A DNA stretch of 23,185 nt from positions 1 through 23,185 of IMG/VR virus record IMGVR_UViG_3300044638_006633; one strand, written 5' to 3'. Source of the DNA: a virus. The translations under genes were made by a program, and so were the position numbers. The notes below the pieces were generated by a model. That model did not search any database. It had not been told where the DNA came from and worked only from the letters and a program-made list of their open reading frames with translations. Positions 4,391 through 18,116 of the stretch are shown here, piece after piece. Numbering within the stretch: position 1 is the stretch's first letter; each line of letters starts with the position of its first letter.

Positions 4391-4861
4391 ATGGAAAAAA
4401 TCACATTAAAATTAGGAGACGTTCTACAATTAGAAAGTGAAATAAACGGATACATTGAACCACAAACCGGAGAACAAGTGTTTGAGGGATTTAGTAAACA
4501 AAACCTATCAATCATTTTGAAATATGAATTGAGTGACTTCTCAACAGAACTTAAAGGTGAGAGAACTAAGGTCGAAGCATTAAGAGATGAATTAATCAAA
4601 AAATATGGTGAAGAAGATGGTAAGGGTGGTGTCTTAGTTAAAATGTATAATGAATTGAAAGATGAGGAAGGTAACGTAACTGGTAAAGTTATTAACCCAC
4701 AATACATCGAATTTGATAATGAATATGGTGTACTTTTGAATCAAGAAATTGAAATCGAATACCCTGAAATTACCAAAGAAGATTTAAAGGATGCAGGTAA
4801 AACGAAAGACAAATATCAGGTCTTATTTAAATTAATCAAAAAAGAAAAAGGGACTTTATAG
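4391..4861 (+). CDS. Unrecognised acidic phage protein (156 aa)
   Basis: The protein starts MEKITLKLGDVLQLESEING. It contains a charged, probably helical stretch at residues 50-80 (ELKGERTKVEALRDELIKKY) and a Lys/Glu-rich tail. The pattern of a short beta start, a helix ending in LIKKYGEEDG, and a later region with IEFDNEYGVLLNQEIEIEYP is reminiscent of small phage proteins such as the DUF1617 family, but I cannot confirm membership. It stands alone between the tRNA and the convergent operon. No strong Shine-Dalgarno sequence precedes the ATG, only an A-rich stretch. Its stop codon lies inside the terminator hairpin. Function unknown. Confidence 0.7.
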   Translation: MEKITLKLGDVLQLESEINGYIEPQTGEQVFEGFSKQNLSIILKYELSDFSTELKGERTKVEALRDELIKKYGEEDGKGGVLVKMYNELKDEEGNVTGKVINPQYIEFDNEYGVLLNQEIEIEYPEITKEDLKDAGKTKDKYQVLFKLIKKEKGTL

Positions 4862-4873
4862 TCCCTTTTTTTT
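4846..4873. terminator. Bidirectional intrinsic terminator
   Basis: GGGACT (4850-4855) pairs with AGTCCC (4860-4865) around TTAT, followed by eight T on the plus strand and preceded by A5 at 4845-4849, which gives a T run on the minus strand. It serves the plus-strand 4391 gene and the long minus-strand operon that ends here. Both stop codons fall within the hairpin. Confidence 0.85.
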
Positions 4874-5704
4874 ATACTCATCTATATAATCGTATAGATT
4901 TACAATTGGTTTCCAATCTAAAATTAGTCTAGCCAATGTACTTTCACATAAAGTTTCTTGAGCCTCTCCTGGTTTATCTTTCATATAAACTCTATCTTTT
5001 TTAAACATATCAGCAACTTCATTTAAAGAAAAATTTTGACCCCTACCTAATTCAAATGTGTGTCCCCACGATTCCTTATCACATATCTTAATTAATGCGT
5101 TAACAATATCATCAATGTGTGTGAAGTCCCTTCTTTTAGAACCATCACCATATATTGTTAAAGGATTACCATCATCATATTGTTTCTCCCATCTACCGAT
5201 TACCGTACTATAACCACCATCTCTTAAATGATGTGGACCATATACGTTATAAAAACGAGTTATGGATGACTTTAAATCAAAATGTTCTTGATAAAGTTTA
5301 ATAATCTCCTCACCAATATCCTTACTGAAAGTGTACGGATTTTTAAACTTACCACTATGGTGTGAACTACTTCCGGCATAAATTAATGGTATGTCATTCT
5401 TAACACAATATTGTGCCACGTTCAATGTACCATTTGTATTCGTTTCAAAATATTCAACGGGATGTTTAAATGATGGTTGTATTCTTGCAATTGCTGCAAG
5501 ATGAAATATAATGTCATATCTCACGTTATCTAATATTCCTAGATTTCTAACATCACCACATATATAATTTACACCATCTTGGTGATTGGAACTAAAACCA
5601 CTTAAGTAGTTATCTAACGATGTAACATCGTGACCATCTTTTAAAAGTCTTTTAATTAAATTGGTACCAACAAATCCAGCACCTCCTGTTACAAGTATTT
5701 TCAT
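4856..5704 (-). CDS. NAD-dependent sugar epimerase/dehydratase, extended SDR (282 aa)
   Basis: The Rossmann motif TGGAGFVG at residues 6-13 binds NAD(P), and the catalytic pair Tyr124/Lys128 lies in YTFSK with Ser113 upstream (AGSSSHH). RFYNVYGPHH and RRDFTHIDDIV are typical of UDP-glucose 4-epimerase and nucleotide-sugar dehydratase relatives. At 282 residues it is slightly shorter than GalE (about 330-340). The substrate is a nucleotide sugar, but whether it performs 4-epimerisation, 4,6-dehydration or decarboxylation cannot be told. As the last gene of the operon it overlaps the preceding glycosyltransferase by one base (TAATG). It probably supplies an activated sugar to the glycosyltransferases of this cluster. 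Its stop overlaps the convergent gene by six bases. Confidence 0.88.
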   Translation of the reverse strand: MKILVTGGAGFVGTNLIKRLLKDGHDVTSLDNYLSGFSSNHQDGVNYICGDVRNLGILDNVRYDIIFHLAAIARIQPSFKHPVEYFETNTNGTLNVAQYCVKNDIPLIYAGSSSHHSGKFKNPYTFSKDIGEEIIKLYQEHFDLKSSITRFYNVYGPHHLRDGGYSTVIGRWEKQYDDGNPLTIYGDGSKRRDFTHIDDIVNALIKICDKESWGHTFELGRGQNFSLNEVADMFKKDRVYMKDKPGEAQETLCESTLARLILDWKPIVNLYDYIDEYKKKGL

Positions 5705-16555: not shown

Positions 16556-17917
16556 TTATATAATCTTGTATAAATTAAATTTACTTCTTGGTTTAAAATT
16601 CTCTAAGGTTTGTTCAATACCCTCAATCATTTTATCACACATTATTTTATTTGATAGATTGTTAATCATAAACTTCCTACCCTTTAATCCTTTTTCTTTT
16701 CTTTTCTTCTTACCAATTTTATACATCTCCATGATGGCATTTGCAACATCATTGTCATTAACTCTATCGTCAAAGATATATGGTGTTAGTACCGAACCAT
16801 TCAAATTAATAGCTGACGACCAAACAGGTTCAACCCAGTCACCATGATTTATGTTACCATGTACTTCTTTATTGTGAAGTGTACCTACATTAATGTAATC
16901 ATCTTCTGTATAATCAAATCCACATTGGTCTTGTAAACCACCAGTAACATTAACAATGATTGGTACACCCGCCATTAAACTCTCAGCAGTTGTTAATCCA
17001 AATCCTTCATTGTTTGCAATGTTAATCGTACAATCAACACCATTGTAAATTTCATTTAATTTATCTTGTTCCAATTTTAAATTGGTGAACTTAACGTCGT
17101 AATCTTTACAAACAGCATCAATTACAGCAGGTAAGTCGGTACCATTCTCATCAACAGGATTCGTGTGCATTAGTAACAAACACTTATCCGCCTTTTCTTT
17201 TGGTAACATATCACAGAACAATCTAAATGAATAAATCACATCACTTGGTTGTTTCCTTCTAATGTTTCTGCTGTTAAAGAATAAAACAAAATCATATTTC
17301 TTATCACCATGAATTAAATTATTAATATCATCCGATATTCTATCCAATGGTTTAAATAAATCAGGATTAATACCATGAGGAACATAACTAATTTGCCAAT
17401 CCTTTAATGGATTAAATGTTACTTTATCAGTTCTCTTACCAACACGATGTACGATACCATACGTTTGTTTAGATATACAACCCAACCAATCACAAGATTC
17501 AAAAACATCTCTATTGTATTGTGGGTCCGGTAAATCATCCCATATATGATAAAATAATATTGGAGTGTGTCGTCTTATCTCATGCTCAACATCATATAAC
17601 CACTGCCAATAATGTGGGTCAGTAAAGTGTAAAATGGCATCTGGTTTCTCATCGTCTATTAATTTACGAAGAATACCAACGTCACCATAACCATTATACG
17701 GAATAATTTTCAAATTAGCATCTTTAACACCGGTCCTTGTTCTAATATCGTCGTTAACATCAACAATTTTACCGAACTCAGGATGTTTAATCGCTGCACC
17801 TAATTGTACCCAATCATATTTGTGAATGGTACCCATCACAATTTCTTTCGACATAGTGGCAATTCCGGATGTCATCCTTAAATCGTCAGATAATAAAAGT
17901 ATTTTTTTCTTCTTCAT
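16556..17917 (-). CDS. Group 1 (GT4-like) glycosyltransferase (453 aa)
   Basis: The ATG at 17917 follows the stop of the upstream regulator by one base (TAATATG). It begins MKKKKILLLSDDLRMTSGIA, a GT-B donor-lobe start. ILFYHIWDDLPDPQYN and ISYVPHGINPDLFKP are typical of the N-domain and linker. NIANNEGFGLTTAESLMAGVP includes the EX7E pair at about residues 304 and 312. It is the first enzyme gene of the operon and paralogous in layout to the next gene. Which sugar is added, and to which acceptor, is unknown. An in-frame start at 17950 would overlap the regulator gene. Confidence 0.88.
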   Translation of the reverse strand: MKKKKILLLSDDLRMTSGIATMSKEIVMGTIHKYDWVQLGAAIKHPEFGKIVDVNDDIRTRTGVKDANLKIIPYNGYGDVGILRKLIDDEKPDAILHFTDPHYWQWLYDVEHEIRRHTPILFYHIWDDLPDPQYNRDVFESCDWLGCISKQTYGIVHRVGKRTDKVTFNPLKDWQISYVPHGINPDLFKPLDRISDDINNLIHGDKKYDFVLFFNSRNIRRKQPSDVIYSFRLFCDMLPKEKADKCLLLMHTNPVDENGTDLPAVIDAVCKDYDVKFTNLKLEQDKLNEIYNGVDCTINIANNEGFGLTTAESLMAGVPIIVNVTGGLQDQCGFDYTEDDYINVGTLHNKEVHGNINHGDWVEPVWSSAINLNGSVLTPYIFDDRVNDNDVANAIMEMYKIGKKKRKEKGLKGRKFMINNLSNKIMCDKMIEGIEQTLENFKPRSKFNLYKII

Positions 17918-17918
17918 A

Positions 17919-18116
17919 TTAAAATTTAGATCCTGTCGTCGCCAATCCAACGTGATTGTTTATTGTACTTCTAAAGTTTTCATCTTTATTGTATAAGTCC
18001 ATAGAACGATTCACTAATTTTTGTAAATTAATAGAACCCTCAATCGATTTAGTTTTAAATTTTTTGTAAACATCATCCAATATATTGACGCTTGTTAGTT
18101 TTTGTTCTGTTTTCAT
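17919..18116 (-). CDS. Ribbon-helix-helix-like small protein, first gene of the operon (65 aa)
   Basis: The ATG at 18116 gives MKTEQKLTSVNILDDVYKKF; upstream codons to 18173 encode a poorly conserved hydrophobic stretch that runs through the promoter, so I excluded it. The layout fits a MetJ/Arc-type fold: a short basic beta strand (KLTSVNI), helix 1 (DDVYKKFKTKS), then helix 2 (NLQKLVNRSMDLYNKD). It would act as a dimer, binding DNA through the strand. Being first in the operon and next to its promoter, it may regulate its own cluster. The last 15 residues (NHVGLATTGSKF) are probably disordered. Identity rests on pattern only. Confidence 0.6.
   Translation of the reverse strand: MKTEQKLTSVNILDDVYKKFKTKSIEGSINLQKLVNRSMDLYNKDENFRSTINNHVGLATTGSKF

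Follow-up and report, generated by a model that had tools for sequence, protein, structure and literature searches.

A phage-borne glycan operon with a probable acyl-aminosugar cassette exchanged among related viruses

Gene content and organization of the locus

The window, meaning the whole stretch of DNA that was analysed, is a linear 23-kb fragment (23,185 nucleotides) of a viral record. It holds an operon of 18 called genes at 4856-18116, all on the minus strand, all open and with zero internal stops, which run from 18116 down to 4856. The coordinates and gene content of the preliminary description hold, and the six glycosyltransferases (GTs), aminotransferase, epimerase, two methyltransferases and acyltransferase that it named are backed by a Pfam scan covering 17 of the 18 proteins. 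By Pfam, two of the GTs are GT-B/GT4-like and four GT-A/GT2-like, including one GT92-like. It had omitted a beta-ketoacyl-ACP synthase III (KAS III), a FabG-like short-chain reductase (SDR), a PhyH-family dioxygenase, a ribbon-helix-helix (RHH)-like protein, two small proteins that share FKFF at the N-terminus, of which one is a fragment of a capsid protein, and a Cys-rich protein. The features are as follows:

18155-18194, minus strand: terminator-like hairpin that follows a small upstream ORF and immediately precedes the operon
17919..18116, minus strand: RHH-like protein of 65 aa, first gene; relatives down to 33% (phage immuto gp182)
16556..17917, minus strand: GT4a, GT-B glycosyltransferase, backbone (PF20706/PF00534; phrog_2170 9.9e-20)
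15307..16554, minus strand: GT4b, GT-B glycosyltransferase, backbone (phrog_2170 1.7e-20)
15042..15305, minus strand: p87, small protein, beta-rich, with an FKFF motif at its N-terminus
14795..15049, minus strand: mini-Gp23, stand-alone fragment of a T4-type major capsid protein (PF07068 9e-4)
14613..14798, minus strand: Cys-rich protein of 61 aa, kept in relatives; overlaps GT2c by 95 nt
14084..14707, minus strand: GT2c, family-2 GT, backbone (PF00535 2.4e-5)
13350..14087, minus strand: GT92-like GT (PF13704, PF01697)
12739..13353, minus strand: MT24, SAM methyltransferase, CmcI/RMNT-like (PF13578, PF04989)
11519..12700, minus strand: DegT/DnrJ/EryC1/StrS sugar aminotransferase (PF01041 1.7e-72)
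10554..11525, minus strand: MT12, class I SAM methyltransferase (PF08242)
9988..10557, minus strand: HEX, hexapeptide-repeat acyltransferase (PF00132)
9110..9991, minus strand: PhyH-family Fe(II)/2OG dioxygenase (PF05721 3.9e-22)
8181..9110, minus strand: KAS III, FabH-like (TIGR00747 309 bits, cut-off 292)
7537..8193, minus strand: FabG-like ketoreductase SDR (PF13561 2.4e-21)
6813..7547, minus strand: GT2b, family-2 GT (PF00535 1.1e-11)
5704..6813, minus strand: GT2a, family-2 GT, distal backbone (PF00535 5e-10)
4856..5704, minus strand: EPI, extended SDR, epimerase/decarboxylase-like (PF01370 6.1e-45)
4845-4870, minus strand: terminator-like hairpin closing the operon

The statement that the genes mostly overlap by one or four bases is about half right, as exactly 1 or 4 bases are shared at 8 of 17 junctions. 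Altogether 13 of the 17 overlap by some amount, three are gaps of 1-4 bases and one is a gap of 38 bases; the count takes the GT4a start as 17917, and some junctions vary with the chosen start. The single candidate promoter proposed earlier was not demonstrated, promoter-like sites being no commoner in the region than in shuffles (73 versus 92.2, sd 12.4). Genes for a DNA methylase and a ThyA homologue lie on the flanks of the operon.

Genes of the 5' backbone

The first protein looks ribbon-helix-helix-like and is a probable regulator; it has no Pfam or PHROG match. GT4b gave its best Pfam score with PF00534 (9.8e-6, just below the cut-off). For p87 no Pfam or PHROG family match was found, and its AF2 model (pLDDT 66) had no PDB match at E<=0.001. 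The Cys-rich protein, which has no PHROG match, looks zinc-ribbon-like by eye.

Mini-Gp23 has an N-terminal FKFFHG, sharing the FKFF N-terminus of p87, and a C-terminal A. Its relatives match PF07068 at up to 4.6e-16, and four of 17 records pass the threshold set for that family. A mini-Gp23 profile matched the full-length gp23 of a 269-kb relative (2e-13), which was the sole match besides that relative's own member among 566 ORFs. A Gp23-family major capsid protein is likewise present in relative G006 (PF07068 1.2e-63), and the window is a fragment without a full-length one. GT4b adjoins mini-Gp23 in all 19 loci retrieved by mini-Gp23 alone. However, no mini-Gp23 turned up in phage immuto, the L072/L073 records or any of the more remote records examined, so the backbone can do without it. 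Its dN/dS (0.39-0.72) would fit relaxed selection.

Genes of the interior and the 3' end

The DegT-family aminotransferase has an intact Lys209 region. Its best PDB matches are 4zwv (1.8e-124) and 4xau (2.3e-124), both of which we take to be AtmS13, and 4zas (CalS13, 6e-116); since the enzymes of these closest structures are either putative or from natural-product pathways, they do not fix the sugar class (pentose versus 6-deoxyhexose). HEX is suggested to be an N-acyltransferase, at the family level, and in the PDB it matches only 3vbi-3vbp at E<=1e-5 (1.8e-20), presumably AntD. The MT12 model (pLDDT 68) retrieved 8zsa and 3ccf, and also RebM/AtmM, with Foldseek, and the protein had no PDB sequence match at 0.1; the predicted fold is that of a generic class I methyltransferase and does not fix O- versus N-methylation.

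The motif residues of PhyH (H137-x-D139, H236, R248) are present, and the catalytic triad of KAS III (Cys112-His234-Asn264) is intact. The FabG-like SDR carries GxxxGxG and YxxxK, its best NCBIfam models being FabG-type and below their cut-offs. The best PDB match of EPI is 6bwl (Pal, 2.6e-36), followed by UDP-glucuronic acid decarboxylase. The GT92-like gene was not found at the same position in loci L002, L004, L007 and L008.

Co-occurrence and exchange of the acyl cassette

The operon is phage-borne, as the preliminary description held: other viral contigs carry it in syntenic form, with the same phage genes on either side, and it is under purifying selection. The dN/dS of the DegT, MT12, HEX, PhyH, KAS III and SDR genes is 0.02-0.09 against L002, L004, L007 and L008, in a table that leaves out the non-orthologous L017 HEX and SDR rows and L008 EPI row (28-32% identical, ratios 0.33-0.62).

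With PhyH as the sole query, 63 loci were retrieved from viral contigs, several of which are one phage from different samples. A DegT-family gene was found in 61 of the 63, an acyltransferase in 60 (HEX in 57, GNAT in 3) and an SDR in 46. KAS III was found in 44, every one with DegT, and its match was missing from the fetched stretch in the other 19. After clustering at 95% PhyH identity, the 43 clusters still held DegT (41), HEX or GNAT (42), and KAS III or an AMP-binding enzyme (31), the latter being carried, for example, by L017. By contrast, DegT, HEX, KAS III and PhyH were all missing from the 13 control pieces, which came from three other phages. The wider PhyH module looks looser than the close family, since the DegT match is just 24-37% identical in 35 of the 61 loci with DegT (hand count), which implies another DegT subfamily there, and GT4b is visible in the fetched stretch of 29 of the 63.

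Within the module, related viruses keep the backbone GTs but exchange the acyl cassette. L008 and L074 are 96-98% identical in GT4a, GT4b and GT2c, yet only 73% in PhyH and 52% in KAS III, whereas L074 and L077 are 65-75% identical in the same GTs, yet 98% in PhyH, 92% in KAS III and 95% in the SDR. In place of HEX, L074, L077 and L124 carry a GNAT, located after the SDR (PF13302 4.6e-11 in L074, the sole one scanned). L025 is a backbone locus without an acyl cassette. Neither the acyl pathway nor the exchange of cassettes had been noted in the preliminary description.

Occurrence outside the lineage

Among 50,697 annotated phage records PhyH and MT12 had zero matches at 1e-5, and HEX had only three, in uncultured phages, at 28-35%. 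KAS III matched in 24 phage-collection records, mostly unannotated, at 21-43% identity; these look host-derived. We know of no cultured phage with the acyl cassette, and none of the publications listed in a literature search dealt with the immuto cluster or with KAS III glycan cassettes of phages.

A bacterial source of the cassette was not found in the genomes and plasmids searched. MT12 was found in 0 of 4 and 0 of 398 genomes (both searches without a positive control) and in 0 plasmids. DegT matched in 924 plasmid records, the best among the matches listed being 36.7%. PhyH was found at 1e-15 in 7 of 398 Pseudomonadota and 0 of 398 Bacillota genomes, and in 8 plasmid records (36% at best in the top-ranked one); the neighbourhoods of seven such cellular genes, one in each of five of the seven genomes and two on plasmids, held no DegT, HEX or KAS III at 1e-6. 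A scan of bacterial contigs with only two peptide patterns gave 11 KAS III loci, none above 38% identity, all without the cassette and none named Bacteroidota. As the genome searches held no Bacteroidota genomes, a cellular source in that phylum is still conceivable.

Functions not found in the operon

The operon was earlier described as a full nucleotide-sugar-to-glycan set, which was not borne out. Neither an acyl carrier protein (ACP, PF00550) nor a PF00483 nucleotidyltransferase was found in the 17 operon proteins scanned, nor in 14 and 10 related records, respectively, most of which are fragments; a distant locus (L078) has a weak MobA-like NTP-transferase. Host precursors are therefore probably needed. 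Likewise, no operon protein has a TM-like segment, and the initiating and export families PF02397 and PF01943 were found in 0 of 16 records, which may be compatible with the use of a host exporter.

Comparison with known systems

The closest glycan locus is gp182-gp169 of the cultured Flavobacterium phage immuto (vB_FspM_immuto, NC_055915). The immuto-type order is present in the window: RHH-like (33%, gp182), GT4a (47%, gp181), GT4b (44%, gp180), Cys-rich (gp179, by eye), GT2c (52%, gp178) and DegT (58%). The window has p87 and mini-Gp23 ahead of the Cys-rich gene, and GT2c and DegT are separated there by GT92 and MT24. At the 3' end the epimerase (59%) and GT2a (29%) are shared in reversed order, whereas the immuto interior differs, with a hexapeptide protein (gp171), a second DegT-like protein (gp172) and no KAS III, PhyH or mini-Gp23 match. 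The T4-type phage P-SSM2 is likewise rich in glycan genes, its two clusters together comprising 24 (PMC2984593); it did not appear among the KAS III/PhyH matches of the window, in a searched collection that may not include it. The operon had been called unusual for a phage, which is overstated given immuto's similar backbone, the 24 LPS genes reported for P-SSM2 (PMC2984593) and related modules in dozens of viral contigs.

The acyl and aminosugar enzymes of the operon correspond to the set of the Pseudomonas syringae viosamine island and of the predicted Flavobacterium psychrophilum O-antigen R-group genes, minus the ACP and plus PhyH. The viosamine island (vioA/M/T/S/B/R/acp) makes a flagellin glycan and likewise combines an aminotransferase, a methyltransferase, KAS III, a ketoreductase, an N-acyltransferase and a transferase; it is bacterial, has its own ACP and has no PhyH among its seven listed genes (PMC3927599). 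The F. psychrophilum genes wfpC/E (KAS), wfpF (KR) and wfpG (PglD-like acyltransferase), which vary by serotype, are predicted to serve an N-hydroxyacyl amino sugar (PMC6519341). The likeness is one of gene description, and that bacterial system encodes an ACP and uses a Wzx/Wzy route to LPS. Many enterobacterial flagellin glycosylation islands have FabG, ACP or acyl-CoA ligases beside sugar genes and are read as possibly making a liposugar (PMC4875605); these are bacterial, with other fatty-acid gene sets. Among viruses, the Mimivirus viosamine cluster encodes an N-acylated, methylated 4-amino sugar of the particle fibrils, but in a eukaryotic virus and with an N-acetyl group; 'ketoacyl' does not occur in the text of PMC10117803.

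Proposed pathway and acceptor

The carrier is a T4-type phage whose host is probably a member of the Bacteroidota. The reading of the interior genes as an acyl-aminosugar cassette is likely to be right. DegT would aminate a host-derived nucleotide-keto sugar, KAS III and the FabG-like reductase would build a short 3-hydroxyacyl chain on host ACP or CoA, PhyH would hydroxylate that chain (or the sugar), HEX would transfer the acyl group to the amine, and MT12 and/or MT24 would methylate. The GTs would assemble the glycan, the conserved GT4a and GT4b perhaps acting first. The acyl and aminosugar genes are an exchangeable cassette between the 3' GT2a and a conserved 5' backbone, RHH-GT4a-GT4b-(p87)-(mini-Gp23)-ZnR-GT2c. 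With such a cassette, related phages would differ in 'serotype'. Gene content, synteny, co-occurrence of the module, exchange of the cassette, selection and motifs are observations; the host, acceptor, substrates, product and benefit, and the order in which the enzymes act, are inferences.

For the operon as a whole, we favour, at a probability of about 0.55, an exchangeable N-acyl-aminosugar glycan that is attached in the cytoplasm to the phage's own virion proteins. Virion and host surface are both live as targets; the sequence evidence leans to the virion, short of proof, because a capsid-protein fragment lies in the operon, TM-like segments are lacking and PF02397 and PF01943 are absent. 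The mycobacteriophages Che8, Corndog and Myrna have, to our knowledge, few GTs and no acyl-sugar pathway. Their GTs glycosylate capsid and tail-tube proteins, which gives precedent for a virion target (PMC12363180, PMC11256854).

The main rival, which we hold about half as probable, is that the pathway alters the envelope glycan of the infected host (e.g. an O-antigen R-group), thereby blocking superinfection or adsorption to debris, with phage enzymes feeding or extending lipid-linked O-units exported by the host. The predicted F. psychrophilum O-antigen R-group pathway is a close functional analogue (PMC6519341), the P-SSM2 LPS genes are proposed to change the host surface (PMC2984593), and cellular PhyH relatives on two sphingomonad plasmids adjoin GT, Wzz-type and ABC-transporter genes. 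Against this stand the six GTs of the operon's own, the absence of a membrane protein from the operon and of PF02397/PF01943 from 16 of 16 records (by TM-like segments and these two families, no flippase or initiating phosphoglycosyltransferase of Gtr-type O-antigen conversion or Wzx-Wzy systems was found), the capsid-protein fragment and the little time that a lytic cycle would presumably leave.

If the acceptor is the virion, such phages would have serotypes in a chemical sense, which bears on adsorption, antibody recognition and phage classification. The KAS III/FabG/PhyH/acyltransferase module recurs in viral contigs, and its swapping probably changes the outward look of particles (or hosts); this suggests that phages diversify elaborate surface chemistry via cassette exchange, like bacterial O-antigens and flagellin glycans. 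Since immuto is a relative in culture, the backbone can be tested, and the fragment of a capsid protein offers a way into how glycosylation is perhaps targeted. It is a speculative and rather unlikely extension that mini-Gp23, with its FKFF partner p87, is a capsid-derived adaptor that tethers the glycosylation enzymes to the major capsid protein as it assembles, yielding serotype-like exchangeable acylated capsid glycans, and that its fast divergence tracks changing targets.

KAS III and PhyH are known from natural-product pathways, and DegT closely resembles CalS13, an aminosugar enzyme, as well as 4zwv/4xau. A small soluble glycolipid or secondary metabolite, acting as a signal or an antagonist of competitors, is nevertheless improbable, given the many GTs, the lack of an exporter, an ACP or an obvious aglycone synthase in the operon, and the position of the cassette inside a conserved GT backbone. 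Still less probable is glycosylation of phage DNA bases. T4-type phages do glucosylate hydroxymethylcytosine, and ThyA and DNA methylase genes are at hand; however, the flanking ThyA has the LPFN motif, which we take to mark thymidylate synthases, the 269-kb relative has a single ThyA match, and we know of no base modification that fits acyl-aminosugar chemistry. An assembly chimera or a recently captured bacterial island, a worry raised by the preliminary description for what is a linear fragment, is hardly credible: neither chimerism nor broken genes were seen, the bacterial KAS III loci of the two-pattern contig scan are distant and lack the cassette, and the same operon with the same phage flanks recurs in contigs of several samples.

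Organization of the operon

Phage glycan loci are known, and what is notable in the present one is a virus-borne acyl-aminosugar module, the exchange of its cassette between related loci, and an embedded capsid-protein fragment. The window is a linear IMG/VR record of 23,185 bases, in which 18 open reading frames without internal stops form an operon-like array on the minus strand from 18116 to 4856. Any overlap is found at 13 of the array's 17 junctions and an overlap of 1 or 4 bases at eight of them; the junctions include one gap of 38 bases. Judged by sequence similarity, the flanking genes are phage-like.

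Features of the operon and its flanks
4845-4870, terminator-like hairpin at the 3' close of the operon
14795-15049, minus strand, mini-Gp23, an 84-aa stand-alone fragment of a T4-type major capsid protein inside the operon
18155-18194, terminator-like hairpin just upstream of the operon's first gene
20745-21938, plus strand, ThyA (flank)
Flank, virion structural protein (phrog_15727, 1e-70), kin to T4-type cyanophage proteins
Flank, DNA methylase (phrog_24333, 1.5e-59)
Flank, NlpC/P60-type tail-like protein (phrog_329, 8e-19)

The DNA methylase is separated from the operon by a small Cys-containing frame of about 54 aa (by eye; 18198-18360, minus strand) and, following it, the upstream hairpin.

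Predicted acyl-aminosugar enzymes

The preliminary description correctly listed six glycosyltransferases (GTs), a DegT aminotransferase, an epimerase-type SDR, two methyltransferases and a hexapeptide acyltransferase (HEX), and the phage glycan operon that it observed is confirmed. Absent from its list were the dioxygenase PhyH (PF05721), KAS III and a FabG-like SDR, which are located between HEX and the glycosyltransferase GT2b. Catalytic residues are present in all three, and KAS III scores above the curated cut-off of TIGR00747. The closest solved structures to DegT are 4zwv/4xau (2e-124) and CalS13 (6e-116). The sole solved relatives of HEX at E<=1e-5 are 3vbi-3vbp, which we take to be AntD, the N-acyltransferase of anthrose synthesis.

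Comparable enzyme sets are described or predicted for bacterial acyl-sugar pathways. For example, the viosamine island of P. syringae comprises vioA, vioM, vioT, vioS (KAS III), vioB, vioR (KR) and acp, and the flagellin glycan cap is N-(3-hydroxybutyryl)-2-O-methylviosamine (PMC3927599); this gene set is matched by the operon, except that the operon has no ACP and carries PhyH. Likewise, the O-antigen R-group of F. psychrophilum is a 3,5-dihydroxyhexanoyl amide whose predicted genes vary among serotypes (PMC6519341), and these genes parallel the acyl set of the operon. Relative to both bacterial sets as thus described, PhyH is extra, ACP is absent (0 of 14 related records) and so is the PF00483 nucleotidyltransferase (0 of 10, a set without L078, a related locus with a weak MobA-like NTP-transferase domain). 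The earlier interpretation is supported in part: it stands for a phage-borne glycan operon but not for a full nucleotide-sugar-to-glycan set.

Recurrence of the module in viral contigs

A search of IMG/VR with an alignment of seven PhyH sequences gave 63 loci. Within the fetched stretches, PhyH is accompanied by a DegT family member in 61 of the 63, HEX in 57, SDR in 46, KAS III in 44, GT4b in 29, mini-Gp23 in 10, a GNAT acyltransferase in three and an AMP-binding enzyme in two. Clustering at 95% PhyH identity left 43 clusters, with DegT in 41, HEX or GNAT in 42, SDR in 30 and KAS III or AMP-binding in 31. The DegT subfamily varies among these loci, since 35 of the 61 matches are just 24-37% identical (hand count). 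In the reverse count, KAS III occurs in 14 of 66 DegT loci, all 14 of which have PhyH, and HEX without PhyH occurs in none of the 66; the GNAT query matches 12 of them, with gene order inspected in three loci. The 13 control pieces, from three phages only (11 from a 269-kb relative outside its operon, plus the Mel-JY01 and RM378 regions), contained no DegT, HEX, KAS III or PhyH.

HEX is absent from L074, L077 and L124, where a GNAT acyltransferase follows SDR; this replacement by an unrelated fold supports the assigned acyltransferase step. The interior of L017 holds an AMP-binding enzyme, a DegT-like protein and a different hexapeptide protein.

Conserved backbone and cassette exchange

The backbone of RHH (an RHH-like 65-aa protein), GT4a, GT4b and GT2c is found again in distant viral contigs at identities down to ~40%, and in the cultured Flavobacterium phage vB_FspM_immuto, which infects Flavobacterium sp. 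LMO8; there gp181 and gp180 correspond to GT4a and GT4b and gp177 to DegT, but the KAS III cassette is absent. Rhodothermus phage RM378 encodes a relative of GT4a, as does Microcystis phage Mel-JY01, where the gene is annotated as two. The exchange of the cassette could be seen in pairwise comparisons. Between L008 and L074, GT4a, GT4b, GT2c and DegT are 96-98% identical, PhyH 73% and KAS III (partial in L008) 52%, and the acyltransferase is HEX in one and GNAT in the other. Between L074 and L077, PhyH (98%), KAS III (92%) and SDR (95%) are close, whereas GT4a, GT4b and GT2c share just 65-75%. Similarly, the window and L007 share 90-97% from DegT through the methyltransferase MT12, HEX, PhyH and KAS III to SDR, and 63-72% in GT4a, GT4b and GT2c. 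L025 has no cassette, and the distal GT2a directly follows GT2c. The dN/dS values of the cassette enzymes (0.02-0.09 against L002, L004, L007 and L008) indicate purifying selection.

The gene for ZnR, a Cys-rich 61-aa protein, overlaps GT2c in two frames over about 95-113 nt (14613-14725, minus strand, in the window). An overlap recurs in L002, L004, L007, L013, L016, L017, L025 and L124; the two genes lie end to end in L008, L074 and L077. Beyond the operon at L007 (13478-20768, minus strand), the genes of the 269-kb relative switch strand, and one is carbamoyltransferase-like by eye.

The capsid-protein fragment

The match of mini-Gp23 to the Gp23 major capsid family is weak in the window (9e-4) and reaches 4.6e-16 in relatives. 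Both ends are conserved (FKFF ... A) and the middle diverges fast; dN/dS for mini-Gp23 is 0.39-0.72. A profile built from 12 such proteins, including the member of the 269-kb relative, matched only that member and full-length Gp23 (2e-13) among the relative's 566 ORFs. PF07068 matched 17 of 17 records in a first set (10 fetched with mini-Gp23 itself, seven with KAS III), four above cut-off, and nine of 29 in a second, where five are full-length Gp23 and four are fragments (G020, G021, G022 and G040); in G040 the matching stretch is interrupted by stops, and an intact 125-aa frame lies downstream of them. GT4b adjoins mini-Gp23 in all 19 loci retrieved by mini-Gp23 alone, which we judge to represent about six distinct backbones. 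Among the ORFs listed for the window and the 269-kb relative, only mini-Gp23 and its small neighbour p87 carry the N-terminal FKFF motif.

Glycan acceptor and host

Phage virion glycosylation offers a precedent for a cytoplasmic acceptor (PMC11256854, PMC12363180). Such an acceptor would fit the present operon, because a simple hydropathy test found no TM-like segment in any of its proteins and the two export families covered, PF02397 and PF01943, are missing from all 16 related records, most of them fragments. The same observations make it less likely that the operon modifies a host envelope glycan, but this alternative keeps some weight because a lysing phage could still borrow a host exporter. 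For the host itself, we infer a member of the Bacteroidota, since 3 of the 18 start sites in the operon match a loose Shine-Dalgarno pattern and immuto, which shares the backbone and DegT, infects Flavobacterium.

Two further observations concern the flanks. ThyA, at 397 aa, far exceeds the 266 positions of the Pfam model that it matches end to end. A 91-nt gene at 4236-4326 (plus strand), called tRNA-Arg(CCG) by ARAGORN, seems by eye to have a long variable arm as in Ser/Leu tRNA; it has no Rfam match at the gathering cut-off and an identical copy in L002, and the CGG codon is used once across the 20 genes counted.
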